A stretch of 64,000 nucleotides of DNA from Candidatus Magnetocorallium paracelense (GTDB lineage Bacteria; Nitrospirota; Thermodesulfovibrionia; Thermodesulfovibrionales; Magnetobacteriaceae): the NCBI GenBank assembly GCA_029001845.1, contig JAREWP010000033.1:1-64000 (forward strand). The letters run 5' to 3'. Both the position numbers and the translations under genes were made by a program. Of this stretch, positions 1,457-52,248 are shown piece by piece (the first letter of the stretch is position 1; each line of letters begins with the position of its first letter). A model generated the notes under the pieces. That model saw only the letters and a program-made list of their open reading frames with translations, was not told the origin of the DNA and searched no databases.

Positions 1457-3148
1457 TCATAGGTTGTATTTCGCCATTTTTCTCCACAACGTAGTTCTGT
1501 TTATACCAAGCATACGTGCTGCTTTCGCCTTGTTCCACTTACTCAACTCCAACGCCTTAATAATCTTGCCCGCTTCATCGCTGTCTTTCCGGGATTCAAC
1601 GGGCTTGTTCAACTTAGCTCCGCTGTCTTTAAAGTCATCCGGTAAGTCCTCAATAGAGATAACGGAACCCGGGCATACAATAAAGGCATGCTCGATGACA
1701 TGTTCCATCTGCCTGATATTTCCCGGCCATCTGTGGTTCATAAACAGATTCAAAACATCGTCGGATACGGATTTTACAGATATGTCAAAGTCATAATTAA
1801 ATTTCATTATAAAATGATCCAAAAGCAAAGGAATATCGTCTCTCCTCTCTCTAAGTGGAGGGAGGTTAATCACAACGACCTTGAGACGATAAAAAAGATC
1901 GTCCCGAAATTCACCAAGAAGTACTTTTTCATTTATATCCTTGTTAGTCGCTGCAACGATTCTGATATCCACCTTTATGGGTTTGTTGTCTCCCACACGC
2001 TCGAACTCCTTTTCCTGCAAAACCCTTAAAAGACGATTCTGTATGCGGGGCGATATATCGGCGATTTCATCGAGAAATACAGTACCTCGATCAGCAGTTT
2101 CAAAACGACCGATCTTGTCTTTTTCAGCGCCTGTAAACGCTCCTTTTACGTGACCAAAGAGTTCGCTTTCCAAAAGATTTTCCGAGAGTGCGGAACAATT
2201 TATTTTTACCAGGGGGAATTCCCTTCTGTTACCTTTGTAGTGCAATGCTTCCGCTACCAACTCTTTCCCTGTTCCACTCTCTCCGATTATCAATACTGTG
2301 GTTCTTACAGAAGACAGCTTATCGATTAATTTATAAACTTTTTGCATGACAAAGCTTTTTCCTATAATATTATGATAGTGCTGCCTTCTTCCGAGATCCT
2401 CCTCCAACTTTACAAGACTTGTCTCTTCCCTGATGATGACAAATCCTCCTGAGAGATTACTCTTCCCGTCAAAAAGAGGAGACGCCTTTAATGTTATCGT
2501 CTGATTGCTGCGTCCTTCTTTTGAGCAATTATGACGTACAACCTGAATGGATGTCTTTAAGTCCATGGATTTACCGAGAGCATTCAGGCATTCGGCGTTA
2601 CAGGTATTTCTTGAATAATCTACTTTTTCACCAATATCATCAGGTGACAGACTACAAATATCCATAGCCGCTTTATTTATATTTTGAAGGACCATATTGT
2701 TATCTACAGTAATAATTCCGTCATTCATATTTCTAAATATGGCCTCTATATTACGTCTGTATTTTTCTTTCTCGTCGACCAGGGCTTTATGTTTTAAAGC
2801 CAACCTCGTAACATTCAATATCGTTTTATTTTCAATCGGCTTTATTATATAATCGAATGCCCCGAGCCTGAGAGCCTCGGAAGCATTTTTAATATCAGGA
2901 CGTCCGGTTACGATAACTGTCGGACAATTGATATTCTTTTCATTAATAAGTCTTAAAACATCGAGCCCCGTTCTATCCTTTAACACAATATCTGTAAAGA
3001 CCAAATCGAAGCTTCTTTTCTCCAACTCACTGAAAGCCTCTTCATATGTAGCCGCCTTAAAAACTTTATAACCCTTATTTACGAGAATCTTCTCAAACAA
3101 ATAGCAGATCACTTCTTCATCGTCAATTACCAGAATTTTATATTTCAA
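1457..3148 (-). CDS. sigma-54-dependent response regulator with PAS domain (NtrC family)
   Basis: Cytoplasmic transcription activator of 563 residues. An N-terminal receiver (about 1-120) has acidic residues D9/D10, phosphoacceptor D53, T81 and K103. A PAS-like segment (about 130-250) carries several Cys (NTCNAEC and a later HNC). The AAA+ domain (about 265-495) has Walker A GESGTGKE, the sigma-54-contacting GAFTGA loop and a DEIAD Walker B. A Fis-type helix-turn-helix closes it (KAARMLGINRTTLWRKM). The family drives sigma-54 promoters after phosphorylation by a sensor kinase. No kinase is adjacent, so it is an orphan; the nearest is the hybrid kinase at 11.3 kb. NtrC-type regulators control some exosortase/EPS systems, but a link to the 40-50 kb region is only a guess. 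Confidence 0.95.
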   Translation of the reverse strand: MKYKILVIDDEEVICYLFEKILVNKGYKVFKAATYEEAFSELEKRSFDLVFTDIVLKDRTGLDVLRLINEKNINCPTVIVTGRPDIKNASEALRLGAFDYIIKPIENKTILNVTRLALKHKALVDEKEKYRRNIEAIFRNMNDGIITVDNNMVLQNINKAAMDICSLSPDDIGEKVDYSRNTCNAECLNALGKSMDLKTSIQVVRHNCSKEGRSNQTITLKASPLFDGKSNLSGGFVIIREETSLVKLEEDLGRRQHYHNIIGKSFVMQKVYKLIDKLSSVRTTVLIIGESGTGKELVAEALHYKGNRREFPLVKINCSALSENLLESELFGHVKGAFTGAEKDKIGRFETADRGTVFLDEIADISPRIQNRLLRVLQEKEFERVGDNKPIKVDIRIVAATNKDINEKVLLGEFRDDLFYRLKVVVINLPPLRERRDDIPLLLDHFIMKFNYDFDISVKSVSDDVLNLFMNHRWPGNIRQMEHVIEHAFIVCPGSVISIEDLPDDFKDSGAKLNKPVESRKDSDEAGKIIKALELSKWNKAKAARMLGINRTTLWRKMAKYNL

Positions 3149-3230
3149 TGGTCTTCTCGTATTTTTAGTTAACGTCCTTGGGACGGACTTTTCTGTTTAG
3201 GACTACCATGGAAAACTACGGTACGTAGGA

Positions 3231-3303
3231 CAATAAAAAGCTTAGATTTTTATCGAGAACGCATGTTTTCCCTAATAGTCTTCAGCCTTTAGTCTATACA
3301 CCT
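3231..3303. repeat. intergenic repeat family F, partial copy 1
   Basis: AAGCTTAGATTTTTATCGAGAACG, then CAGCCTTTAGTCTATACACC, matches 14255-14352 and 23446-23541, where the element is longer on its left. The shared core is AAGCTT(A/G)...TTTTATCGA(T/G)AAC followed by GTCTT(C/T)AGCCTT(T/C)AGTCTATACAC. No coding potential. Confidence 0.6.
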
Positions 3304-3365
3304 TGTAGTTACAGTATTTATTTAAAAAGAAAGGGACATTCCCTTTATGAGGCAGGGGAAAAAGC

Positions 3366-3394
3366 AGGGCAGCTGTCTCCTTGACAGCCGCCCT
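3366..3394. other. strong hairpin between divergent genes
   Basis: AGGGCAGCTGTC (3366-3377) pairs with GACAGCCGCCCT (3383-3394) with one mismatch and a 5-base loop. On the minus strand it is followed by TTTTT, so it has the shape of a terminator, but no minus-strand gene lies upstream of it. It may be a transcript barrier or part of the 5' leader of the regulator gene; the role is not determined. Confidence 0.45.
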
Positions 3395-3565
3395 GAAAGT
3401 AAGGGGGTTGATGATTAATGAAATTCATCTGTATAGTATACTACTATTCATAAAAAAAGTCTATATAAATATAGACTAATACATACTTTAACACCCATTT
3501 GGTTTAATATTTCTCAATGAATTCATGAAACTAAACAGGAGATATCTTTTGTGCTAAAATAGTTG

Positions 3566-3571
3566 TATAAT
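3566..3571 (+). promoter_or_regulatory. candidate -10 box of the hydrolase/methyltransferase operon
   Basis: TATAAT lies 24 bases before the ATG at 3595 and just ahead of a strong AAGGAGG ribosome site. No good -35 hexamer is seen at the usual distance, although TG precedes the box. The proximity would give a very short leader. Moderate to low support. Confidence 0.35.
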
Positions 3572-3594
3572 AAAAAAACCAAGGAGGTTTTATT

Positions 3595-4212
3595 ATGCTT
3601 GAGAATATTCGTTGGCTCGGACACGACACCTTCAGGATCGGAGGAGAAAAGATTGTTTATACAGATCCATTTAAAATCAAGGCGAATGAAAAGGCGGATC
3701 TGATATTAATCACCCATGAACACTTTGACCACTGCTCGCCCGATGATATCACCATGCTTCAGGGAGAAGATACTGTAGTCGTAGCCACAAGCGACTGTCT
3801 GCCCAAACTCAGCGGAAATGTAAAGGCCGTAAAACCGGGCGATACTCTCAACATATCGGGCATCGATATAGAGGTGGTTCCCGCCTATAATACGAACAAA
3901 CAGTTTCACTTGAAGACCAATAACTGTGTAGGATATATCTTTACAGTCAATGGCAAGAGAATTTATATAGCAGGTGACACCGATTATATACCTGAGATGA
4001 AATCCTTTAATGATATAGATATCGCACTCCTTCCTGTAAGCGGTACCTATGTCATGTCAGCGGAAGAAGCCGTTCAGGCCGCTCTTGACATCAATCCGAA
4101 GGTAGCGATTCCTATGCATTACAATGCCATTGTCGGCTCGGAGGCGGACGCCGAGAAATTTGCTTCCATGCTAAAAGGCAAAATTGAAGTGGTGATATTA
4201 AAAGAGTCGTGA
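3595..4212 (+). CDS. UPF0173-type metal-dependent hydrolase (metallo-beta-lactamase fold)
   Basis: A 205-residue cytoplasmic protein of the UlaG-like/UPF0173 metallo-beta-lactamase superfamily. Visible metal-site motifs are HEHFDH (41-46), an Asp in AGDTDYIPEM and a late His in PMHYN; an early His (WLGHDTF) is also family-typical. Length matches the family. The substrate is unknown; relatives act on phosphorylated sugars or lactones. The start is secure (AAGGAGG seven bases before ATG). It overlaps the next gene by four bases, so the two are translationally coupled. Confidence 0.85.
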   Translation: MLENIRWLGHDTFRIGGEKIVYTDPFKIKANEKADLILITHEHFDHCSPDDITMLQGEDTVVVATSDCLPKLSGNVKAVKPGDTLNISGIDIEVVPAYNTNKQFHLKTNNCVGYIFTVNGKRIYIAGDTDYIPEMKSFNDIDIALLPVSGTYVMSAEEAVQAALDINPKVAIPMHYNAIVGSEADAEKFASMLKGKIEVVILKES

Positions 4213-39744: not shown

Positions 39745-39824
39745 ATTTACAAAGGGGAATCGTTTTGATTATTTTTAGGTTTACTAAAAAAAACAGTAAG
39801 AAACAGACATGGGGAGGAAGGATA

Positions 39825-41291
39825 ATGACTCAATCGTTACAGCCTTTCAGCAGCAGTTTTACATCGGACATTCCCGATATATTGACGGAATTGGGGTGCA
39901 GCATTGCACTGACCACATATCAGGCGGGAAAGGTTATCTTTATCAGCGCCGACAGAAACGCTCTGATCCAACTGGCCCGCACTTTCAACACACCCATGGG
40001 GATCACCCATAGCGGAAGACGCATGGGAATCGTTACTCTCGATGAAGTAGTCGTATTTGCCAACGATTCAGACTTCGCATGGAATTATCCCAAACAGCCC
40101 GAAACCTATGACGCCTTCTACCTGCCCAGGTCCGTGTACTATACAGGAACCATAGACCTCCACGACATCGCCTGGGGAGAGGCGGGGTTGTGGGGGGTGA
40201 ATACGCTTTTTTCCTCTCTTTCCCTAATCGATGAGGAGTACAGCTTTACTCCCAAGTGGACCCCTCCCTTTATTAGGGAGTTACAGCCTGAGGACAGATG
40301 CCATTTAAACGGAATGGCTATGGCGGACGGGGCGCCCAAATATGTAACTGCTTTGGGAGAGAGCAACCACAAAGAGGGGTGGCGTGAGAACAAGTACTCA
40401 GGGGGCATTATTATGGAAGTCCCCACAAAGGAGATCCTCTTCAGAGGGCTTTCCATGCCTCACTCCCCCCGTGTGATCGACGATAAGCTCTATTTTCTCA
40501 ATTCCGCCGCCGGAGAGGTGATGGCAGCCGAACCGGAGCAGGGGATTGTGGAGAGTGTGAACCAGGTGCCGGGATACGCCAGGGGGCTTGCGGGATATGG
40601 GGATTATCTCTTTGTAGGGACATCCCAAATCAGAGAAAAACATCAACACAGCGACATGCCCATAGCAAAGGGCGAGACCTTTGCCGGTATTGTGGTGATC
40701 CACCGTCCTACGGGCAGGATAGCAGGGAGCATACGGTACCACACCACCTGTAAGGAGATATACGATGTGGCAGTATTGCCCGGAGTTATCAGACCGGGCA
40801 TATTGAATCACACCTCCTCTTTTCACAGGAATCTGCTCTCCATGCCGGGAGACTATTTTTACAAGGATATGGAGGAGTTTCTTCCTGAGGGGAGGGACTG
40901 TGCTCCGGTAAGTCTCGGTGTATTAAAGGGCGGTGAAAATCCTAACCGGATTATGGAGAGAGTCGCAAAAGGGGTAGTAACCGTGGCCCTGCTAGGAGGT
41001 CTAATTATCCATACTCCCGATATTGCGAATGCCGTTACTCCCAGCTTTACAGAAAAGACAGGGGCCAATAATCCTTTTAACGGAGTAACTCATCAATTGA
41101 ACCCAAGACCCACATTTATAGATATAGACAATGACAGCGATACTGTTAACGATGACATCTTTATCGGGAAGTCTGGCGGAGAAATCATATACTATAACAA
41201 TACAGCCACATACAACACGACTCCGGCCCCCACCCTGGATGAGTGGGGGATGATCATACTGCTGGCTATGACCATGGTGGGACTGGCTTAA
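39825..41291 (+). CDS. TIGR03032-type protein fused to an IPTL-CTERM tail, paralog 1
   Basis: 488 residues from ATG 39825 (GGGGAGGAAG before it). Residues 1-365 match TIGR03032 (GSSFTSDIPDIL-like start, FNTPMGITHSGRRMGIV, RCHLNGMAM, LSMPHSPRV). At about 377-402 (MERVAKGVVTVALLGGLIIHTPDIANA) an internal signal-peptide-like helix follows. A short FG-GAP/VCBS-like repeat (PTFIDIDNDSDTVNDDIFIG) precedes PTLDEWGMIILLAM, the IPTLxxWG-type sorting motif and membrane helix. The usual basic tail is cut off: TAT seen in paralogs 2 and 3 is TAA here (41289-41291). The codons for NYRKNRDEP still follow. Predicted: cytoplasmic domain, helix, exported C-terminal part; sorting may fail. Confidence 0.85.
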   Translation: MTQSLQPFSSSFTSDIPDILTELGCSIALTTYQAGKVIFISADRNALIQLARTFNTPMGITHSGRRMGIVTLDEVVVFANDSDFAWNYPKQPETYDAFYLPRSVYYTGTIDLHDIAWGEAGLWGVNTLFSSLSLIDEEYSFTPKWTPPFIRELQPEDRCHLNGMAMADGAPKYVTALGESNHKEGWRENKYSGGIIMEVPTKEILFRGLSMPHSPRVIDDKLYFLNSAAGEVMAAEPEQGIVESVNQVPGYARGLAGYGDYLFVGTSQIREKHQHSDMPIAKGETFAGIVVIHRPTGRIAGSIRYHTTCKEIYDVAVLPGVIRPGILNHTSSFHRNLLSMPGDYFYKDMEEFLPEGRDCAPVSLGVLKGGENPNRIMERVAKGVVTVALLGGLIIHTPDIANAVTPSFTEKTGANNPFNGVTHQLNPRPTFIDIDNDSDTVNDDIFIGKSGGEIIYYNNTATYNTTPAPTLDEWGMIILLAMTMVGLA

Positions 41292-41471
41292 AATTACAGA
41301 AAAAACCGGGATGAACCGGTGGGCCTTGCGGGGTAGAGGGAAATGGGCCTGTGTCCGACCCACACGGCCCGGGTGCGATTCGCCTCTGTCGGGACGGGCA
41401 TAGAAGCTCGCTCTTATTTACCTGCTACTCTGCCTATTGACTAAGGAGATAGTTAAATATAAAATATATTC

Positions 41472-42377
41472 ATGGGTTATATAGACAGAACGTTAAAGAT
41501 CATCAGCAGACTTCATCCGGAATGGATAGGCAAGTTGATTTTTTCGGGTAAAGGAGAAGTGGAGTCGATGAGGGCCGTCGGACTGGAGCTGAACATACAC
41601 GAAAAGAGGGTTGATAACGCTTTTGAACTTTTATTGAAAGATGGAGAAACCAAATATTTATTGTTAGAATTTTTATTCGGGGAGAGAACCTTTGAACTGC
41701 ACAAATACTTTATAAAGACAGCCATGGCGACAGATCATTATGGAAAAGGGAAGGTAGCTACGGTAGTGGTCCAGTTGACGGAAGGATCAGGGAAGCCCAT
41801 AAAACCGGTATATGAAGTTGAGTTAGAGGGAATCAGGAATCTATTTGAGATAAGGGTAGTGTATTTAAACGAGTACATTGAAAAGATAGAGAGCGGAGAG
41901 CTATATGAATTTGCGCCATTACTACCTTTGCTAAAGGGCGGAGCGGATGAGAGACTTTTAAGAGAGGTAAAGGATTTAATCAAAACAGAGCCGGACCAAA
42001 AGAAGCTGTCGGAGTTATACTCAACTGCTTTGACGGTAGCCGGCAGGTATATTACAAAAGAATTCTTATGGGAATTCTTTAAGGAGGAATTAGAAATGAT
42101 ACAAGAGTCACCCATTGTACAGGAATGGATTAATGAGGGGTACAGGAAAGGCGAAGACGAAGGGTACAGGAAAGGCGAAGACGAGGGTTATCTTAAGGCA
42201 GGACGTGAGATGCTGCTTGATATACTGGAGGAGAGATTCGGATTGTTAAAGAGAAGTATTATAGATGAAATAAGAGGGATTGATTCTCATGAATTTCTTA
42301 AAGCCCTCAATCGGCATGCTCTTCGAGTGGATAACCTGGATCGTTTTATTGAGATCGTTCAACAAGCGAATGATTAG
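41472..42377 (+). CDS. Rpn-like/DUF4351-type nuclease-family protein
   Basis: 301 residues. The core (LELNIHEKRVDNAFELLLKDG, KYLLLEFLFGERTFELHKYFI and KVATVVVQL) has a PD-(D/E)XK-like D...E-F-L arrangement; the E-x-Q/K motif is degraded, so catalysis is uncertain. The tail has two GYRKGEDE repeats like the GMEK repeats of the 33-kb gene, and a final helix (EMLLDILEERFGLL). It lies between two broken cassette pieces. Role unknown; the family is linked to recombination. Confidence 0.7.
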   Translation: MGYIDRTLKIISRLHPEWIGKLIFSGKGEVESMRAVGLELNIHEKRVDNAFELLLKDGETKYLLLEFLFGERTFELHKYFIKTAMATDHYGKGKVATVVVQLTEGSGKPIKPVYEVELEGIRNLFEIRVVYLNEYIEKIESGELYEFAPLLPLLKGGADERLLREVKDLIKTEPDQKKLSELYSTALTVAGRYITKEFLWEFFKEELEMIQESPIVQEWINEGYRKGEDEGYRKGEDEGYLKAGREMLLDILEERFGLLKRSIIDEIRGIDSHEFLKALNRHALRVDNLDRFIEIVQQAND

Positions 42378-42795: not shown

Positions 42796-43041
42796 GTGTG
42801 TCAGCTCCCCTTGGTTCTATCACTCGTTTTATGGATCCCGGGCGGCAAAACGGTAAATAATATGAAGCGCATTTCCTGTCTGTTGCTGTTATGCTATCTC
42901 TGGCAGGTAGTGGTCATCGGCTTTATCGGCGCCTATAAAATCCCCCTCTTTCCAAGATTCCTAAGGGCTTTATCGATAGCCCCGCCTTTTATCTACTGGT
43001 TTTATCTGCTGTTTCTCACACAGAGAGGCAAAGAAGAATGA
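42796..43041 (+). pseudogene. 3' remnant of an exosortase gene
   Basis: The last about 70 residues (MKRISCLLLLCYLWQVVVIGFIGAYKIPLF onward) match the end of the exosortase at 48250-49752 (VKRISCVLLFCYLWQLTVIGFI). Homology begins near 42805. All catalytic residues are missing. A short frame with ATG exists but no ribosome site. It shows the exosortase region was once duplicated behind paralog 1. Confidence 0.8.
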
Positions 43042-43151: not shown

Positions 43152-43418
43152 TCATTTCACAGGTCGATAGACATCTTTACGATGCCCGACCTTTACAACC
43201 TGAACTGTCAATTCGTCATCCTGTATGGAATAGATGATACGATACCTGCCATGCCTGAGACGATATCTCTCCTGGCCGGATAATTTTTGACAGCCTGGAG
43301 GTCTTGGATTATGACCTAAAGATTCGATAACTTTCAGTATATTTTTTAGAGTGTTCTTCGGGACAGATTCAAAATCCTTCCACACCGACCTTTTAAAAAA
43401 TATTTTATATTCGGCCAT
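43152..43418 (-). CDS. RelE/ParE-superfamily toxin
   Basis: 88 residues with the RelE fold: MAEYKIFFKRSVWKDFESVP, LGHNPRPPGCQKLSGQERYRLRHGRYRIIYSI and a basic C-terminus (VKVGHRKDVYRPVK). Basic/aromatic residues typical of ribosome-dependent mRNA cleavage (R-x-R-x-G-x-Y-R) are present. It overlaps the upstream antitoxin gene by 14 bases. Likely an active or recently active toxin-antitoxin module. Confidence 0.9.
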   Translation of the reverse strand: MAEYKIFFKRSVWKDFESVPKNTLKNILKVIESLGHNPRPPGCQKLSGQERYRLRHGRYRIIYSIQDDELTVQVVKVGHRKDVYRPVK

Positions 43419-43638
43419 CCTTCTTTAGCCTTTTAACCATTTCATCATAGCCGATTAAAGGTTCTTCGGCTCTCTCATCAAAAGACGAAAGGTCTTCGGC
43501 GTCCTCAGCCAAGGCTTCTCTTACAGCCCTATTCACCAGATCGGAGACAGAGCAGGAAGTTTCAACTGACTTTAATTTAAGAGCCCTGTGTAAAACAGTG
43601 TCTAAATAAATGGTAGCACGTTTCGTAGGTGCAGCCAT
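43405..43638 (-). CDS. ribbon-helix-helix antitoxin of the RelE-type toxin
   Basis: 77 residues from ATG 43638 (GGAGGGA before it; an upstream start at 43668 is rejected). The N-terminal RHH motif is KRATIYLDTVLHRALKLKSVETSCSVSDLVNRAV; the acidic tail (EDAEDLSSFDERAEEPLIGYDE) would cover the toxin. The palindromic TAACGTTTTAACG-like stretch upstream is the likely operator. A broken copy of its 5' end is at 42613. Confidence 0.85.
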   Translation of the reverse strand: MAAPTKRATIYLDTVLHRALKLKSVETSCSVSDLVNRAVREALAEDAEDLSSFDERAEEPLIGYDEMVKRLKKDGRI

Positions 43639-43990
43639 AACATTCCCTCCAAATATACTTTTTGACATTATAACGTTTTAACGCTTTAATGTCAAAAGTG
43701 CTTTCGCAAAAAAATCTTCTGAAGAATATTTTCGCCTCTTCACAGGGAGAGGAAATTTTGTGAAGTGCATGGGAGGAAACCGGGGGGATCCAAAAATGCT
43801 TCCTTCCATACACAAAAGACTATACTTCTAACCGGGTAAATTTATGAATTTGAAAATGGTTGTTGTAAGACGCCCGGAAGTCAGCCGAAGGCGCTACTTT
43901 AAGGTGCTTATTTATAGCGCCTTAACAATAAAAACGAAATTATCCGCGACTCATATGTTTTACCAATTATCTCTAAGATGTATATAAACA
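43639..43990. other. intergenic region upstream of paralog 2
   Basis: About 350 bases. The first 70 are the antitoxin leader/operator (ACGTTTTAACGCTTTAATGTC). No gene is recognised in the rest. A stretch with an inverted TAAGGTGCTT/GGCGCT-like composition near 43890 has no close copy in the window. AT content rises towards paralog 2. Confidence 0.4.
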
Positions 43991-44131: not shown

Positions 44132-44779
44132 ATGAAGCAATCGCTACCACCATTCAGCAGCAGTTTTACATCGGATATTCCCGATATATTAACGGAACTG
44201 GGATGCACCATTGCAGTAACCACTTATCAGGCAGGGAAAGTTATTTTTATAAGCGCCAATAAGGACGGTATTATACAACTGGCCCGTAACTTTAACACCC
44301 CCATGGGGATCACTCATAGCGGAAGGCGGATGGGAATCGTTACCAAAGGGGAAGTGGTCGTACTGGCCGACGATCCCAATTTCGCGATGAATTATCCGAA
44401 GCAGCCTGATACGTATGACGCCTTTATAGGGGAAAATGACGGAGTTATTAATTATTATAAGAATACGGGAAGCAGCACCAGTCCGACCTTTACCGCACAA
44501 ACAGGAGCCAATAATCCTTTTAACGGAGTGGATGTGGGGAGTGCGAGTTTTCCAGCATTTGCGGATATAGACGGAGATACCAGTGATGTCGAAGACGACG
44601 CCTTTATCGGGGAAAAAGACGGAACTATCAATTACTATAATAATACAGCCACCTACTCCACTACTCCCGCTCCAACCCTGGATGAGTGGGGGATGATCAT
44701 ACTGCTGGCCATGACCATGGGGGGGCTGGCTTATAATTACAGGAAGAATCGGAATGAGCCTGTTGGGCTTGCGGGGTGA
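44132..44779 (+). CDS. internally deleted TIGR03032/IPTL-CTERM protein, paralog 2
   Basis: 215 residues from ATG 44132 (AGGGAGG). The first 98 residues match paralogs 1 and 3 up to QPDTYDAF, then jump to IGENDG, the inside of the FG-GAP/VCBS-like part. About 350 residues, including most of TIGR03032 and the internal signal-like helix, are absent. The join falls at GACGCCTTT, shared by both break points in paralog 3. The remainder has two DAFIGExDGxINYY units and the complete tail PTLDEWGMIILLAMTMGGL followed by YNYRKNRNEP. With no export signal it would be at most tail-anchored. Confidence 0.8.
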   Translation: MKQSLPPFSSSFTSDIPDILTELGCTIAVTTYQAGKVIFISANKDGIIQLARNFNTPMGITHSGRRMGIVTKGEVVVLADDPNFAMNYPKQPDTYDAFIGENDGVINYYKNTGSSTSPTFTAQTGANNPFNGVDVGSASFPAFADIDGDTSDVEDDAFIGEKDGTINYYNNTATYSTTPAPTLDEWGMIILLAMTMGGLAYNYRKNRNEPVGLAG

Positions 44780-45947: not shown

Positions 45948-47462
45948 ATGAGCCAATCGTTACAGCCTTTCAGCAGCAGTTTCACATCGGACATTCCCGA
46001 TATATTGACGGAACTGGGATGCACCATTGTATTAACCACATATCAGGCCGGCAAGGTTATTTTTTTAAGCGCCAACAAGGACGGTCTGGTCCAATTGGCC
46101 CGCAACTTCAATACACCCATGGGGATCACCCATAGCGGAAGGCGCATGGGAATCGTTACCCATGATGAAGTGATCGTACTGGCCAACGATCCAAACTTCG
46201 CAAGGAATTATCCGAAGCAGCCCGATACTTATGACGCCTTCTATCTGCCCAGGTCCGTGTACTATACAGGAACCATAGACCTCCACGATATCGCCTGGGG
46301 AAAGCCGGGCTTGTGGGGTGTGAATACCCTCTTTTCCTCCCTTTCCATAATAGACGATGAGGAATACAGCTTCAATCCCAAATGGTCCCCTTCATTTATT
46401 ACTGAGCTGCGCCCCGAGGATCGCTGCCATTTAAACGGCATGGCAATGGTCGATGGCGAGCCCAAATATGTGACAGCCCTTGGAGAGAGCAATAACAAAG
46501 AAGGATGGCGTGAGAACAAACTATCGGGCGGCGTTATCATGGAAGTACCTTCAAAAGAGATCCTATTCAGGGGGCTCTCCATGCCCCACTCCCCTCGTGC
46601 GATTGGCGATAAACTCTATTTTCTCAATTCCGCTACCGGGGAACTGATGGCGGCGGAGCCGGAACAGGGGATCCTATAGAGCGTCAACCGAGCGCCCGGA
46701 TTTGCGAGGGGCCTTGCCGGATATGGGGACTATCTCTTTGTGGGAACATCCCGGATCAGAGAGAAACATCAGCACAGCGATATGCCGGTGGCAAAGGGCG
46801 AGACCTTTGCCGGAGTTGTGGTAATCCACCGTCCGACCGGCAATATAGCGGGAAGCATACGCTACCATACGACCTGTAAGGAGATATACGATGTGGCTGT
46901 ATTGCCCGGTGTTATCAGACCGGGCATATTGAATCACAGCTCCTCTTTTCACAGGAATCTGCTCTCCATGCCTGGAGACTATTTTTACAAGGATATGGAA
47001 GAGTTTTTTCCTGAGGGGAAGAGATTCGATTCAGAGAGTCTCGGAGTATTAAAGAGCAGTGAAAATCGTAACCGCTTCATGGAGAGAGTCGCAAAAGGGG
47101 TTGTAACCGTTGCCCTGGCCGGGGGGCTTACTATTCATGCCCCTGATATTGCAAATGCAGTTACCCCGGCTTTTACTGAAAAAACAGGGAACAATAATCC
47201 TTTTAACGGAGTGGATGTGGGGAGTATTAGCGCACCTGCATTTACGGATATAGACTCAGATAGTGACACTATTGACGATGACGCCTTTATCGGGGAATTT
47301 GACGGAACTGTCAACTACTATATCAATACAGCAGCATATACCAATACTCCCGCCCCCACCCTGGATGAGTGGGGAATGATCATACTACTGGCCATGACCA
47401 TGGGGGGACTGGCTTATAATTACAGAAAGAATCGGGATGAACCTGTGGGGCTTGCTGGGTAG
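45948..47462 (+). pseudogene. TIGR03032/IPTL-CTERM protein with in-frame amber codon, paralog 3
   Basis: One frame of 505 codons runs from ATG 45948 (GGGAGGAC before it) to the stop at 47460-47462, interrupted by TAG at 46677-46679. Paralog 1 has GAG (Glu) at that place, and no bases are lost, so this is a simple nonsense change. TIGR03032 (1-365), an internal signal-like helix (MERVAKGVVTVALAGGLTIH, about 378-397, then APDIANA), one FG-GAP/VCBS-like repeat (PAFTDIDSDSDTIDDDAFIGE), and the complete tail PTLDEWGMIILLAMTMGGLAYNYRKNR are all preserved. Without readthrough only the first 243 residues are made. Intact codon structure beyond the stop suggests recent loss. Confidence 0.8.
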
Positions 47463-47515: not shown

Positions 47516-47947
47516 TTAGATAAGGAAGGGATTGATCACCGTGACGGTTTGAAAACATTGGCCACTGTTTAGGTCTTCCGTGAGTAAGTAAGTGGCTTTG
47601 CCTTCGATGGCGCTGACGACAATCAGACTGTCCCACCAGGAGAGCATGTGTTGTTGCTGTAAGTCGATTGCCTTTAGAAAGGATTTTCGGGTTGGAGAAT
47701 AAGTTGGCCAAGTGGAGAGGTCTTCGGCGATTTCTTTACGCTTGACACCATCTATCTTATCTGCGAATTTATTGAGAAGAGCAGCCTGAACTTCAAAAAG
47801 AACCTGAAAACTCAAGAGTCCATTGCCGGATCGCCATAGAATTTCTATAAATTCCCATGCTCTTTTTTGTTTCTTTGGCGAGTCCTCATCTAAAGAATAG
47901 AGAAAGATATTGGTATCAACAAAACATCGGCTATCTGTATAATTCAT
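47516..47947 (-). CDS. PIN-domain toxin (VapC-like)
   Basis: 143 residues. The PIN acidic set is seen: FVDTNIFLYSLD (D10 region), VLFEVQAALL (Glu), WWDSLIVVSAI (Asp) and LLTEDLNSGQ (Asp). These bind Mg for RNA cleavage. It overlaps its antitoxin by 17 bases. Lies between paralog 3 and the exosortase gene on the opposite strand. Confidence 0.9.
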   Translation of the reverse strand: MNYTDSRCFVDTNIFLYSLDEDSPKKQKRAWEFIEILWRSGNGLLSFQVLFEVQAALLNKFADKIDGVKRKEIAEDLSTWPTYSPTRKSFLKAIDLQQQHMLSWWDSLIVVSAIEGKATYLLTEDLNSGQCFQTVTVINPFLI

Positions 47948-48158
47948 CCCGGCTCCAAATTATATCGTCGTTAAGACCCAGATGATTGTTTTTACAATTG
48001 GATAAAAAACGTTCAACAGATGAAACCTCTTTTTTCCTTTGAAAATTTTCATCAATAATCACAACGACGTGTGCATCACCTGTGGCTATATCGCCGGGAA
48101 GTTGAATACTCAACATATGATCTTCTCCAATGGTTAGCGTGGTTTCAATTGTTTTCAC
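47931..48158 (-). CDS. antitoxin of the PIN-domain toxin
   Basis: 75 residues: a DNA-binding-like start (METTLTIGEDHMLSIQLP-like; MKTIETTLTIGEDHML), VVVIIDEN and an acidic tail (NNHLGLNDDIIWSRDELYR). The layout fits DUF2281/VapB-like antitoxins. A GGAGGAG ribosome site precedes the ATG. Upstream AT-rich sequence near 48180-48230 probably holds the promoter. Confidence 0.75.
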   Translation of the reverse strand: MKTIETTLTIGEDHMLSIQLPGDIATGDAHVVVIIDENFQRKKEVSSVERFLSNCKNNHLGLNDDIIWSRDELYR

Positions 48159-48249: not shown

Positions 48250-49752
48250 TTGATTACTAGGGGACGGAAAAATCGGGACAGGCAAAAAAATGAGCGTCAT
48301 TTTTTACAATTTTATCAGGTTCCGAACCGGGAGCGATCTATCAGACACAACGACATAAGAGTTTACATCTTCCTAAGATTCATAATCATATTTCCATCCC
48401 TTTACTTTATAACCACCGTCGATTTTATCAATGACTACCTTATCATGCCCTTTACCTCTCTGACCGCTTATCTCTCGTCATTATCTCTTAACCTCCTGGG
48501 TATACACAATAAAATCAACGGACTCTGCCTGGTTGCGCCCAACAGGTCCGTCGATATCACCCGTGAATGTTCCGCTATTGAGGTGTTTGTTTTCTATCTC
48601 TCCTGGATCGTGGCCTATTATAAAGCGGTGAAAGAGAAGATCATCGGAGCGGTTGTCGGTTTTTCGATTATCTTTTTAACCAATTTGCTCAGAGTTATGG
48701 CCATCTTTATCGCCATTGTCTATTTGGGAAGGTATGAACTCTTCCATCAATATATCGGACAGGCGATGATCATTGCCGTTACCTTCGGGGTGCTTCAGTT
48801 GTGGACCAGGGATAAGCTAACCCCATCGGCCCTTCTGAGCAAACAGAATTTGAATATATTAAAAAGAGCGGCCCTCTTCTTTTTCACTGTTGCGGCGGGG
48901 TTGATCATACTGGACAGGGTGAAGAACAGGGAATTGGCGGATTATCTGACAACCATTGTCCTGAACCATACCCGGTTCCTGCTGGGATTATTCGGCATTC
49001 ATACGACAGTGGATAACCTGGTAATCCGCGGCCAGGGGGCGAACATCCTGTTCGCCTCGGGATGTCTCACCACCCCTCTGGCTGTATTATATATCGCCTT
49101 TGTCCCGGTCTCCGGATTTTCCAATAAAACAAAATCTCTCCTTCTGTTGGCCGCCATTCCCATCTTTTACCTTATCTCCCTTTTCCGGGTGGCCTCCTTT
49201 TTCATCTTTCCCTTTGTAAAACCGGATCAATCCAACTTCTTTTACAACCATCAATATACTGTTTTTTTCATCGTCCTTATTGTATGCACGACTCTTTTCT
49301 ACTATTACAGAGAGGAACCTAAAAGGGCGTTTAAGGTTTTCATACTCACACTGTTAACGGCTCCGGTCTCTATCTTTATCTGGCGGCAGGCGGGACCATT
49401 TTATAACGACTATCTGCTCAATTCACTGCCGGCGTATTTTTTCGGCGTCAGGGAGCTTGCATATGATCCGAATCGGATATTATCATCCATGCCTGCCTTT
49501 GAGTTCGTGCTTACGGTATCGCTCTTTTTGTGGTTTCCGGAGAGCGGAATTGTGAAAAAGGTGAAACGAATCTCCTGTGTGCTGCTGTTTTGCTATCTCT
49601 GGCAACTGACAGTCATCGGCTTTATCGGCGCCTATAAAATCCCCCTTTACCCAAGATTCCTGAGGGTTTTATCGATCGCTCCGCCTTTTGTATACTGGTT
49701 TTATTTATTAGTTCGCACGGAAAGAGGCAAAGGCGCACAGTATAAGGAATAG
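48250..49752 (+). CDS. two-domain exosortase (XrtH-like)
   Basis: 500 residues, 11 or more membrane helices. It belongs to the exosortase/archaeosortase group that processes C-terminal sorting tails; the IPTLxxWG tails nearby point to the exosortase H type. Domain 1 (about 45-190) has C107 (ITRECSAIEVF), R148 (TNLLRVMAIF) and H166 (ELFHQYIG). Domain 2 (about 225-350) repeats the set: C272 (FASGCLTTPL), R313 (ISLFRVASFF), H334 (YNHQYTV). Cys-to-Arg spacing is 41 in both, and GIH-to-Cys is 23 in both. A possible degenerate third unit (about 380-480) lacks Cys and Arg. The start is uncertain (TTG 48250; no clear ribosome site). Confidence 0.85.
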   Translation: MITRGRKNRDRQKNERHFLQFYQVPNRERSIRHNDIRVYIFLRFIIIFPSLYFITTVDFINDYLIMPFTSLTAYLSSLSLNLLGIHNKINGLCLVAPNRSVDITRECSAIEVFVFYLSWIVAYYKAVKEKIIGAVVGFSIIFLTNLLRVMAIFIAIVYLGRYELFHQYIGQAMIIAVTFGVLQLWTRDKLTPSALLSKQNLNILKRAALFFFTVAAGLIILDRVKNRELADYLTTIVLNHTRFLLGLFGIHTTVDNLVIRGQGANILFASGCLTTPLAVLYIAFVPVSGFSNKTKSLLLLAAIPIFYLISLFRVASFFIFPFVKPDQSNFFYNHQYTVFFIVLIVCTTLFYYYREEPKRAFKVFILTLLTAPVSIFIWRQAGPFYNDYLLNSLPAYFFGVRELAYDPNRILSSMPAFEFVLTVSLFLWFPESGIVKKVKRISCVLLFCYLWQLTVIGFIGAYKIPLYPRFLRVLSIAPPFVYWFYLLVRTERGKGAQYKE

Positions 49753-50032: not shown

Positions 50033-50260
50033 TTACTTGCTTAAAAGAGCTATAAATTTCTCTACAGTAATATTAGCTTTACGTATTTGAGTTCGTAAAA
50101 GACCTTTATCAAGATATTTATGTAAAGGTATCGTTAAGACAACTGTCATTCCTTTTTTAATTAAGCTGACATGACTTCCCTTCTGCCTGTCTTTAATCCA
50201 CCCTGCTTTTTCAAACGCTCTAATGGCTTCATTGCCGGAACATACAGGCAGCTTAGGCAT
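50033..50260 (-). CDS. hicA: HicA-type mRNA interferase toxin
   Basis: 75 residues. MPKLPVCSGNEAIRAFEKAGWIKDRQKGSHVSLIKKG contains the double-stranded-RNA-binding-like fold and the catalytic His (GSHV). Start ATG 50260 overlaps the upstream hicB stop by one base (TGATG). Likely functional as a pair. Confidence 0.93.
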   Translation of the reverse strand: MPKLPVCSGNEAIRAFEKAGWIKDRQKGSHVSLIKKGMTVVLTIPLHKYLDKGLLRTQIRKANITVEKFIALLSK

Positions 50261-50466
50261 CAAACAGCAACCTCTAATTCCTCTATTTCTAAGGGGATTG
50301 GCAAATTATTGGCCTTTCTGGTGCCTATACTTAACTCGATAGCTTCTTTTATGTTATTCATTGCTTCTTCTTTTGTTTTCCCTTGGGTTACACACCCGTC
50401 GAGTGAGGGGCATTCAGCGATAATATAGCCATCTTCTCCTTGAGTTAATGTTATAAAAAACCTCAT
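50260..50466 (-). CDS. hicB: HicB-type antitoxin
   Basis: 68 residues from ATG 50466 (AGGAGG ten bases before it). It shows the partial RNase-H-like fold: MRFFITLTQGEDGYIIAECPSLDGCVTQGKTKEEAMNNIKEAI. The short C-terminus (LEIEELEVAV) lacks an obvious DNA-binding extension. Neutralises HicA. Confidence 0.93.
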   Translation of the reverse strand: MRFFITLTQGEDGYIIAECPSLDGCVTQGKTKEEAMNNIKEAIELSIGTRKANNLPIPLEIEELEVAV

Positions 50467-50566
50467 TTTTAACCTCCTCATTAAACATTATTTATTTTAA
50501 GACCAAGGATTTTTAAAAACATATTAACTTTCATCATCATTACCATTAATTGGTTTTAAACTATAA

Positions 50567-50886: not shown

Positions 50887-52248
50887 TTATATATACCTCT
50901 TCAAATCCCCCAAATATGCCTCATAATGTTTCCATTTATTGACGGACCCCCTATAGATCGGACGGCGTACCTGCCAATTGCTTGCCGTACGGACAATTTT
51001 TTTCTGTTTGTAAAAAGAAAAACAGCGATCGTCCCTGTCAAGCTCCAAAAAATCCAATAGTTTGGGAATATTGGTTTCCGAATCATAAACCAGCGCCTCA
51101 TAATGGATATCGAATATCTCCAGGGGCAAACACTCTTTCCAATGGTTCATTAAACGGCGATACTCTCGGAAATACCTGCCAAGGGTCTCCGGATCATATG
51201 AATATTGACCACCGGCGTGAAAACAGGTAAAGTAGTTGGACAGGCAGGTATCCATCCCGTTTCTTAGGCAATGTACGATTTTCACCTTTGGAAAGATCAG
51301 AGCGATAAAGCCGAGAAATAAAAAATTGGCAGGCATTTTATCCGCGATGCAAAGGACCTTCTCTTTTTTGCATTTCTCGCTGATAATCGATAAATAGCTC
51401 TCTCCCTGTCTCTTCAATACTTCATGATTCGCCATCTTTATTGCTTCGAGATAGTCGCCCTCCTTTCCGGTCAGACCCGGTGTCTCATTGGCGATTCTTT
51501 CGATATCGTCCAGTTCCCCCACGCCATAAGCACGAGGATGGGCGGCAATGATTTGTTCGACAAGGGTTGTTCCCGATCTCGGCATACCGACAATGAAAAC
51601 AGGAAGTCTTGTCTCTAGCCCCGATCTGTCATGACTCCCAAAGAATCCCTCTGTGAATGTCTTAATCGTTCTATTTACAAAATTCACCAAAGGGCGCAGA
51701 TCCGGTTTCATTAAATGATGCTTAATAAGATTTCCCTTTTCAAAAAAACCGAAGGCCTCTTTGAACATTCCGCAATCATCAAAGATTTTCCCTAAAGCAA
51801 AAAAGAGATAAGCCCTGTCCGGTGTGGATAAATGATCTCTCTTTAACAGCGCTTCTATCGACTTTACGTCTTCGTCATCGGCGGAGGAGTATTTTCTACA
51901 CTGCGTGATGTGCCTGTACGTGTCTGCAAGAGTCGGTTTTATGCGGATCGCCTCTCTGTAGGCCTCTTCGGCCTCTTTGATACGTCCCTGATCTTTCAGA
52001 GCGTTTCCCAAATTGTTATATGCCTCCGCAAAAAGAGGTTCGCCCTCTATCGCCTCCCTGTAAAGAGCTTCCGCCACTTCCGCCTTTCCCTGAGACCAGT
52101 AAACATTACCCAATATGTTTAAAGCGCGAGAATTTCGGGGAGAGGTCTCCATAATTTGTAAAAGCGTACGCTCCGCCTTCTCGTATTTCCTCTTCTCATA
52201 CAAATAGACGGCATACTCAAGGGCCTTTTGAAGGGGTACTCTTGTCAT
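50887..52248 (-). CDS. TPR-sulfotransferase
   Basis: 453 residues. Three or four TPR repeats (about 10-110, e.g. AEAYNNLGNALKDQGRIKEAEEAYREAI) precede a sulfotransferase domain whose 5' phosphosulfate loop is PVFIVGMPRSGTTLVEQII (about 216-234). FPKVKIVHCLRNGMDTCLSNYF is the 3'-phosphate-binding segment. It transfers sulfate from PAPS to a protein, glycan or lipid acceptor. TIGR03032-type genes and TPR-sulfotransferases have been noticed near each other; here both are in one region. No signal peptide is seen. Confidence 0.88.
   Translation of the reverse strand: MTRVPLQKALEYAVYLYEKRKYEKAERTLLQIMETSPRNSRALNILGNVYWSQGKAEVAEALYREAIEGEPLFAEAYNNLGNALKDQGRIKEAEEAYREAIRIKPTLADTYRHITQCRKYSSADDEDVKSIEALLKRDHLSTPDRAYLFFALGKIFDDCGMFKEAFGFFEKGNLIKHHLMKPDLRPLVNFVNRTIKTFTEGFFGSHDRSGLETRLPVFIVGMPRSGTTLVEQIIAAHPRAYGVGELDDIERIANETPGLTGKEGDYLEAIKMANHEVLKRQGESYLSIISEKCKKEKVLCIADKMPANFLFLGFIALIFPKVKIVHCLRNGMDTCLSNYFTCFHAGGQYSYDPETLGRYFREYRRLMNHWKECLPLEIFDIHYEALVYDSETNIPKLLDFLELDRDDRCFSFYKQKKIVRTASNWQVRRPIYRGSVNKWKHYEAYLGDLKRYI

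Follow-up and report, generated by a model that had tools for sequence, protein, structure and literature searches.

Why should a protein that begins as a domain of the cell interior carry a signal-peptide-like segment in its middle and a sorting tail at its end? The question is raised by an open reading frame in a 64,000-nucleotide stretch of the genome of Candidatus Magnetocorallium paracelense (contig JAREWP010000033.1, positions 1 to 64,000), referred to here as the window. The frame (39825-41291, ATG at 39825, TAA at 41289-41291) encodes 488 amino acids and is the first of three related copies; these copies, their parts and the exosortase genes discussed below all lie on the plus strand. 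Copy 1 is an in-frame fusion of a TIGR03032 protein with an exported protein bearing Asp-rich repeats, the two being encoded side by side elsewhere.

The start of copy 1 is preceded, within the 30 bases upstream of starts that were inspected, by a Shine-Dalgarno-like GGGGAGGAAGG (39811-39821). Residues 13-337 (39861-40835) form the TIGR03032/DUF4915 domain (NCBIfam; Pfam PF16261), and these 325 N-terminal residues score far above the curated cut-offs, with 373.3 bits against TIGR03032 (cut-off 251.5 bits) and 374.1 bits against DUF4915. An earlier note on this DNA had claimed that the N-terminal part has no export signal, and none is visible in the first 60 residues, where the 17-residue hydropathy maximum is only 1.10. 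A linker (residues 338-376, 40836-40952) leads from the domain to the internal signal-peptide-like segment described in that note (residues 377-403, 40953-41033; MERVAKGVVTVALLGGLIIHTPDIANA), which has a charged Met-Glu-Arg start, continues with GVVTVALLGGLII and closes with ANA. The segment holds the higher of the two top 17-residue hydropathy peaks of the protein (residue 380, 1.87, covering residues 380-396), the other being the C-terminal helix (residue 471, 1.56), hydropathy being a guide to such segments and no signal-peptide predictor. The arrangement supports the idea that a cytosolic domain precedes a C-terminal part that is exported. It is also plausible that the chain is cleaved into two products, because the segment has an AxA site and a moderate hydropathy like that of the signal peptides of free-standing partners.

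The segment is followed by one Asp-rich unit (NPFNG...DIDNDSD; 41034-41213) that resembles the repeats of those partners. It had been described as FG-GAP/VCBS-like, and a profile made from the relatives' repeats does match it weakly (E 3e-7 with Z=2), but the Pfam families PF13517 and PF01839 find no FG-GAP match in copies 1-3. The frame closes with a PTLDEWG motif and a hydrophobic helix (41214-41291), so the proposed exosortase-sorted tail is present in its first two elements, but the basic anchor of copy 1 has been lost to a stop codon. The protein ends at GLA, at a TAA that occupies the position of a Tyr codon in copies 2 and 3, and it stops ahead of the basic cluster that follows the helix in both of these; the corresponding run in copy 1 (NYRKNRDEPVGLAG) is left untranslated (41292-41336) and is conserved by comparison with copy 3. 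With the IPTL-CTERM model (curated cut-off 20.8 bits) copy 1 scores 13.9 or 17.4 bits in two scans, and copies 2 and 3 score 21.0 bits in one scan and 19.7 and 20.1 bits in another. Comparison of the 14 codons past the copy 1 stop with those of copy 3 gives 5 synonymous differences and no nonsynonymous one, so the TAA is recent.

Copy 2 (44132-44779) has suffered an in-frame deletion that joins residue ~98 of its TIGR03032 domain to Asp-rich repeats, taking out most of the domain together with the signal segment and leaving the tail intact; its TIGR03032 score is only 50.9 bits (cut-off 251.5). Copy 3 (45948-47462), said in the earlier note to share the design of copy 1, does have the same order of parts, with a complete tail and a TIGR03032 score of 359.8 bits, but only when read across an in-frame TAG (46677-46679) that replaces a GAG of copy 1. 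Across the whole fused frame, copies 1 and 3 differ with a dS of 0.66 and a dN/dS of 0.16. By part, within limits set a few residues off the feature limits given here, dN/dS is 0.10 for the domain, 0.35 for the linker, 0.14 for the signal segment, 0.37 for the repeat and 0.24 for the tail. The fused frame is thus old and has been under purifying selection since an old duplication.

These values bear on two simpler accounts of the fusion. One is that translation starts at the internal Met (40953) to give a separate exported protein, the upstream domain being another product. The stretch from Met377 does resemble a complete signal peptide, and in relatives the partner is encoded by a gene of its own, but the junction is free of stops in both long copies and the linker itself is under purifying selection. 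GGGAGG-type ribosome sites also precede all three full starts, whereas none is found in the 30 bases upstream of Met377 in copy 1 or copy 3. Such a start as that of a separate gene is rejected on ribosome sites and selection, and we regard this account as very improbable. Since both the dN/dS values and the ribosome sites point the same way, it is the fused protein on which selection appears to have acted. The other account, an accidental joining of neighbouring genes by loss of a stop codon with no functional meaning, draws on the fact that the fusion occurs in this genome only, among those sampled. It too is improbable, considering that the fusion predates the duplication, is in frame in both long copies and, unlike a simple read-through, has lost the N-terminal extension of its partner described below.

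A candidate enzyme for the tails is encoded next to copy 3. The gene at 48250-49752 specifies a two-domain exosortase-family membrane protein, likely the processing enzyme for the tails, that scores 46.7 bits against TIGR04178 (cut-off 23) and 76.8 against the XrtH model, just below its cut-off of 86. Its first half is XrtH-like and its second exosortase-like, and the two can be aligned to one another (E 8e-6). Inspection by eye shows that the first half retains the Cys, NxxR and HxxxG residues named in PMC1569441. Candidate Cys, Arg and His residues can be picked out by eye in both halves, the second being degenerate. A search of plasmids for relatives of this protein found none. Because the genome's only three IPTL-CTERM matches are the tails of this cluster, beside the exosortase, the enzyme and the tails look mutually dedicated, although other contigs also give matches to the exosortase family. 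A 3' remnant of a second copy of the exosortase gene, recognized by sequence comparison by eye, lies at 42796-43041 and points to duplication of the entire module followed by erosion.

Among 395 genomes sampled from the phylum the TIGR03032 domain occurs in one, namely this one, where its three matches all fall in this cluster. Most of the nearest relatives found are Bacteroidota proteins of ~50% identity, and a quick tree places copies 1 and 3 in a group of Bacteroidota and Spirochaetota sequences (support 99) in which they have no close relative. Horizontal acquisition of the module is the simplest reading. Its rarity in the phylum, together with the stop in the tail of copy 1, the deletion in copy 2, the TAG in copy 3 and the reduction of one exosortase copy to its 3' end, would also suit a module that arrived horizontally and is now dead, a pseudogene cluster in which the fusion worked once and the copies no longer make a sorted, exported protein. 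This is a serious alternative, if one to which we give rather less than even odds. Every copy is damaged as assembled, so the system is probably decaying in this genome. Against a dead module stand the full propeller and signal segment of copy 1, the possibility that the TAA of copy 1 and the TAG of copy 3 are assembly errors, and the selection visible on every part, the codons past the copy 1 stop included. With that selection still visible and the remaining exosortase frame intact, the damage is recent.

What the N-terminal domain might do is suggested by its predicted structure. In an AlphaFold2 model of copy 1, 301 of the 488 residues reach a pLDDT of 90 or more, and residues 1-350, confident save for one short loop, form a six-bladed beta-propeller. 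In structure comparison with VIA, YWTD and NHL propellers are listed with Z values of up to 25.0, the value of the best matches, which are YWTD propellers; the best Foldseek matches are Kelch-type propellers. Assignment to an enzyme class from the fold was rejected, as both lists consist mostly of Kelch, YWTD and NHL propellers. Sequence relatives in the PDB are limited to weak matches to quinoprotein glucose dehydrogenase (E 0.006). The predicted propeller would fit binding of a peptide or protein, a fit that falls short of proof. Literature searches, with subscription journals mostly outside their coverage, returned no paper on TIGR03032 or DUF4915 and none on IPTL-CTERM with exosortase.

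Elsewhere the family is widespread and uncharacterized, and its members probably stay inside the cell as a rule. At 80 TIGR03032 loci from other genomes, 79 reading frames were found, ending soon after the domain except for one that leaves its contig, and the 80th (L025) was read separately; in all 78 assessable relatives no tail reaches a hydropathy of 1.2. The lack of a hydrophobic segment in homologues, which the earlier note had set against its own proposal, marks the fusion as derived and leaves the segment itself standing. In 348 genomes of one Bacteroidota order, all 48 TIGR03032 matches over the cut-off have frames of 343-412 amino acids. No other fusion to an exported partner occurs in the 80 loci or these 48 matches, and none was seen among 20 over-cut-off matches from one gammaproteobacterial class. 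Eight frames of that class exceed 450 amino acids; all their ends were inspected, and Pfam scans of three of them find TPR or acetyltransferase domains.

The C-terminal half of the fusion does exist as a separate gene, which the earlier note had proposed to look for, and it adjoins the stand-alone TIGR03032 gene. An immediate neighbour with three or more D-x-[DN]-G-[DN] motifs is present at 46 of the 80 loci (L087 and L093, which have no gene call, being scored as misses), compared with 4 of 295 other, non-adjacent reading frames of at least 200 amino acids at the same loci. The profile of the FG-GAP-like unit matches a neighbour at 32 of the 80 loci, always on the same strand, 19 of these loci having supplied the profile. 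The sorting ends of these partners are diverse. The Bacteroidota partners scanned have T9SS tails, a Wenzhouxiangella partner ends, by eye, in an IPTL-CTERM-like sequence, and a cyanobacterial partner is an RTX protein; no signal-peptide-like segment was seen in the cyanobacterial partners. The planctomycete type of partner has a basic N-terminus. Assignment of these planctomycete proteins to the LEPR-XLL family was considered, but NCBIfam does not support it.

A further feature of the Bacteroidota partners, present in one or more spirochaete partners as well, is a start of ~60 mostly basic residues followed by a signal peptide. A profile of this extension was made from 19 N-termini, all of them from TIGR03032-adjacent genes, and searched in the same 348 genomes, some of which may be seed genomes and whose completeness is unstated. 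It matched in 45 of the 348, and 41 of these 45 also have TIGR03032. Conversely, TIGR03032 is found in 51 genomes, in 44 of them over the cut-off, and 39 of the 44 have the extension. Four genomes have the extension with no TIGR03032 match at all. A Fisher test of this overlap gives p about 1e-39 with kinship and shared seeds ignored; among 29 TIGR03032 sequences from the order, the median identity between pairs is 0.55. Of the five genomes with TIGR03032 over the cut-off and no extension match, four were inspected. In three of them the neighbouring gene has a similar, visibly diverged N-terminus (at L025, one of the three, motif counts place the passenger outside the FG-GAP type), and in the fourth it has no such N-terminus.

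The extension is not confined to neighbours of TIGR03032. Of its 62 matches, 34 lie within 3 kb of a TIGR03032 gene on the same strand and 28 lie elsewhere. One genome (G597) has six extension matches (L154, L158, L160-L163), none of them beside its single TIGR03032 gene, an arrangement in which one factor may serve many clients. One of the unlinked Bacteroidota proteins, L168, has FG-GAP repeats behind the extension and a tail that scores 29.1 bits as IPTL-CTERM (cut-off 20.8); an exosortase-family gene is present in the same genome. In L168 the C-terminal half of the window fusion has a counterpart that stands on its own. Pfam scans of five extension proteins, L168 included, identified every one as an FG-GAP protein. 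In the fusion, the place of the extension is taken by the linker, some 40 residues between propeller and signal segment, in which a remnant of the extension was sought and none found.

Taken with the adjacency of the separate genes, the fusion is a hint that members of the propeller family act on such surface proteins ahead of their export. Our preferred reading, to which we give a probability of about 0.55, is that TIGR03032 serves one class of exported proteins as their cargo factor in the cytosol and is tethered here ahead of the signal peptide of its cargo. The propeller would fold in the cytosol; the internal signal peptide would insert N-in/C-out, by which the C-terminal part would begin its export through Sec; signal peptidase would cut after ANA; and the exosortase of 48250-49752 would handle the PTLDEWG tail. 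The factor would recognize its exported cargo, in Bacteroidota through the basic N-terminal extension, and would hold or present it for modification and export, the covalent link standing in for the extension in the fusion. Against the cargo factor it can be said that all three copies carry a lesion, that the fusion lacks the extension, whose role is argued from other genomes, that 34 of the 80 loci have no D-x-D-G-D neighbour by the motif criterion, and that the cyanobacterial partners lack a visible signal-peptide-like segment. The factor could also recognize the repeats rather than the extension, since the five scanned extension proteins are all FG-GAP proteins.

A wider version of the cargo-factor reading is more tentative. 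TIGR03032 may be the cytosolic core of an undescribed accessory system for maturation and export of Asp-rich-repeat surface proteins, reading the ~60-residue basic extension in Bacteroidota and spirochaetes, while in this genome factor and cargo would form one polypeptide whose tethering makes the extension dispensable and which yields two products from one chain. The range of such a system, equally tentative as part of the same reading, would take in at least Bacteroidota, Spirochaetota, Planctomycetota, Cyanobacteriota and Pseudomonadota. Fusion, conserved adjacency and co-occurrence with the extension together give TIGR03032/DUF4915 a concrete, testable role, namely partnership in the cytosol with one class of exported surface proteins.

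The main rival to a cargo factor is a modification platform, in which TIGR03032 would be the recognition part of a cytosolic machine acting on the Asp-rich repeats (by glycosyl-, sulfo- or acyl-transfer, or by Asp hydroxylation) before they are exported by any route, and would be no export factor. The company kept by the domain lends this some weight. It is fused elsewhere to TPR and GT41-type glycosyltransferase domains or to acetyltransferase (GNAT) domains, and at one locus (L019) it lies directly downstream of a gene (2061-3953) that joins Asp/Asn-hydroxylase and sulfotransferase domains in one protein. In the window a TPR-sulfotransferase gene, a possible modification partner, lies 1.1 kb past the exosortase (50887-52248, minus strand). 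The diversity of the partners' sorting ends (T9SS, IPTL-CTERM, RTX) also counts in favour of this rival. Yet most Bacteroidota loci pair TIGR03032 with an exported protein and no evident adjoining transferase, and no co-occurrence found is stronger than that with an N-terminal extension ahead of a signal peptide. On balance we find a modification platform somewhat doubtful. The hydroxylase/sulfotransferase of L019 also adjoins an IPTL-CTERM protein on a Diaphorobacter plasmid.

The cargo-factor reading can be set beside several known systems. Among TIGR03032/DUF4915 proteins themselves, the members sampled stand alone or are joined to TPR, glycosyltransferase-type or acetyltransferase domains, and none to an exported, sorted protein. 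PEP-CTERM/IPTL-CTERM proteins (Haft 2006, PMC1569441), like the fusion, combine a C-terminal motif and hydrophobic helix with an exosortase-family gene, here in the cluster. They generally have an N-terminal signal peptide, whereas that of the window fusion lies ~377 residues in; copy 1 further differs in having no basic cluster, and the window exosortase in being a two-domain fusion. The extended signal peptide region (ESPR) of type 5 secreted proteins resembles that of the partners described here, in that large exported proteins begin with an extension and an ordinary signal peptide comes after it (PMC8151025). It comprises ~25 residues (PF13018), and the accessible part of that source describes no dedicated cytosolic partner for it (PMC8151025). 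The extension of the partners differs in its ~60 residues, in its co-occurrence with TIGR03032 and in giving no PF13018 match in the five proteins scanned (E up to 0.01); nor did copies 1-3 match PF13018 (E up to 1).

The closest working analogy is the accessory Sec system for serine-rich-repeat glycoproteins, in which substrates with an extended signal peptide are modified in the cytosol ahead of export and a set of accessory genes is dedicated to the task (PMC7948813). That system is Gram-positive and its substrates are LPxTG anchored, unlike here. No existing model for the kind of extended signal peptide seen in the partners was found. If the proposed role is correct, it would provide a Gram-negative counterpart of the accessory-Sec idea, in which cytosolic handling is coupled to export through an extended signal peptide.

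Several smaller genes are interspersed with the module. Between copy 1 and the exosortase remnant lies a gene for a protein of 301 amino acids (41472-42377), for which Pfam and NCBIfam gave no convincing family. Its product resembles Rpn-type recombination-promoting nucleases, and an Rpn gene also comes after TIGR03032 on a Synechocystis plasmid. Small gene pairs at 43152-43668, 47516-48158 and 50033-50481, which resemble toxin-antitoxin pairs, sit between and after the parts of the module.
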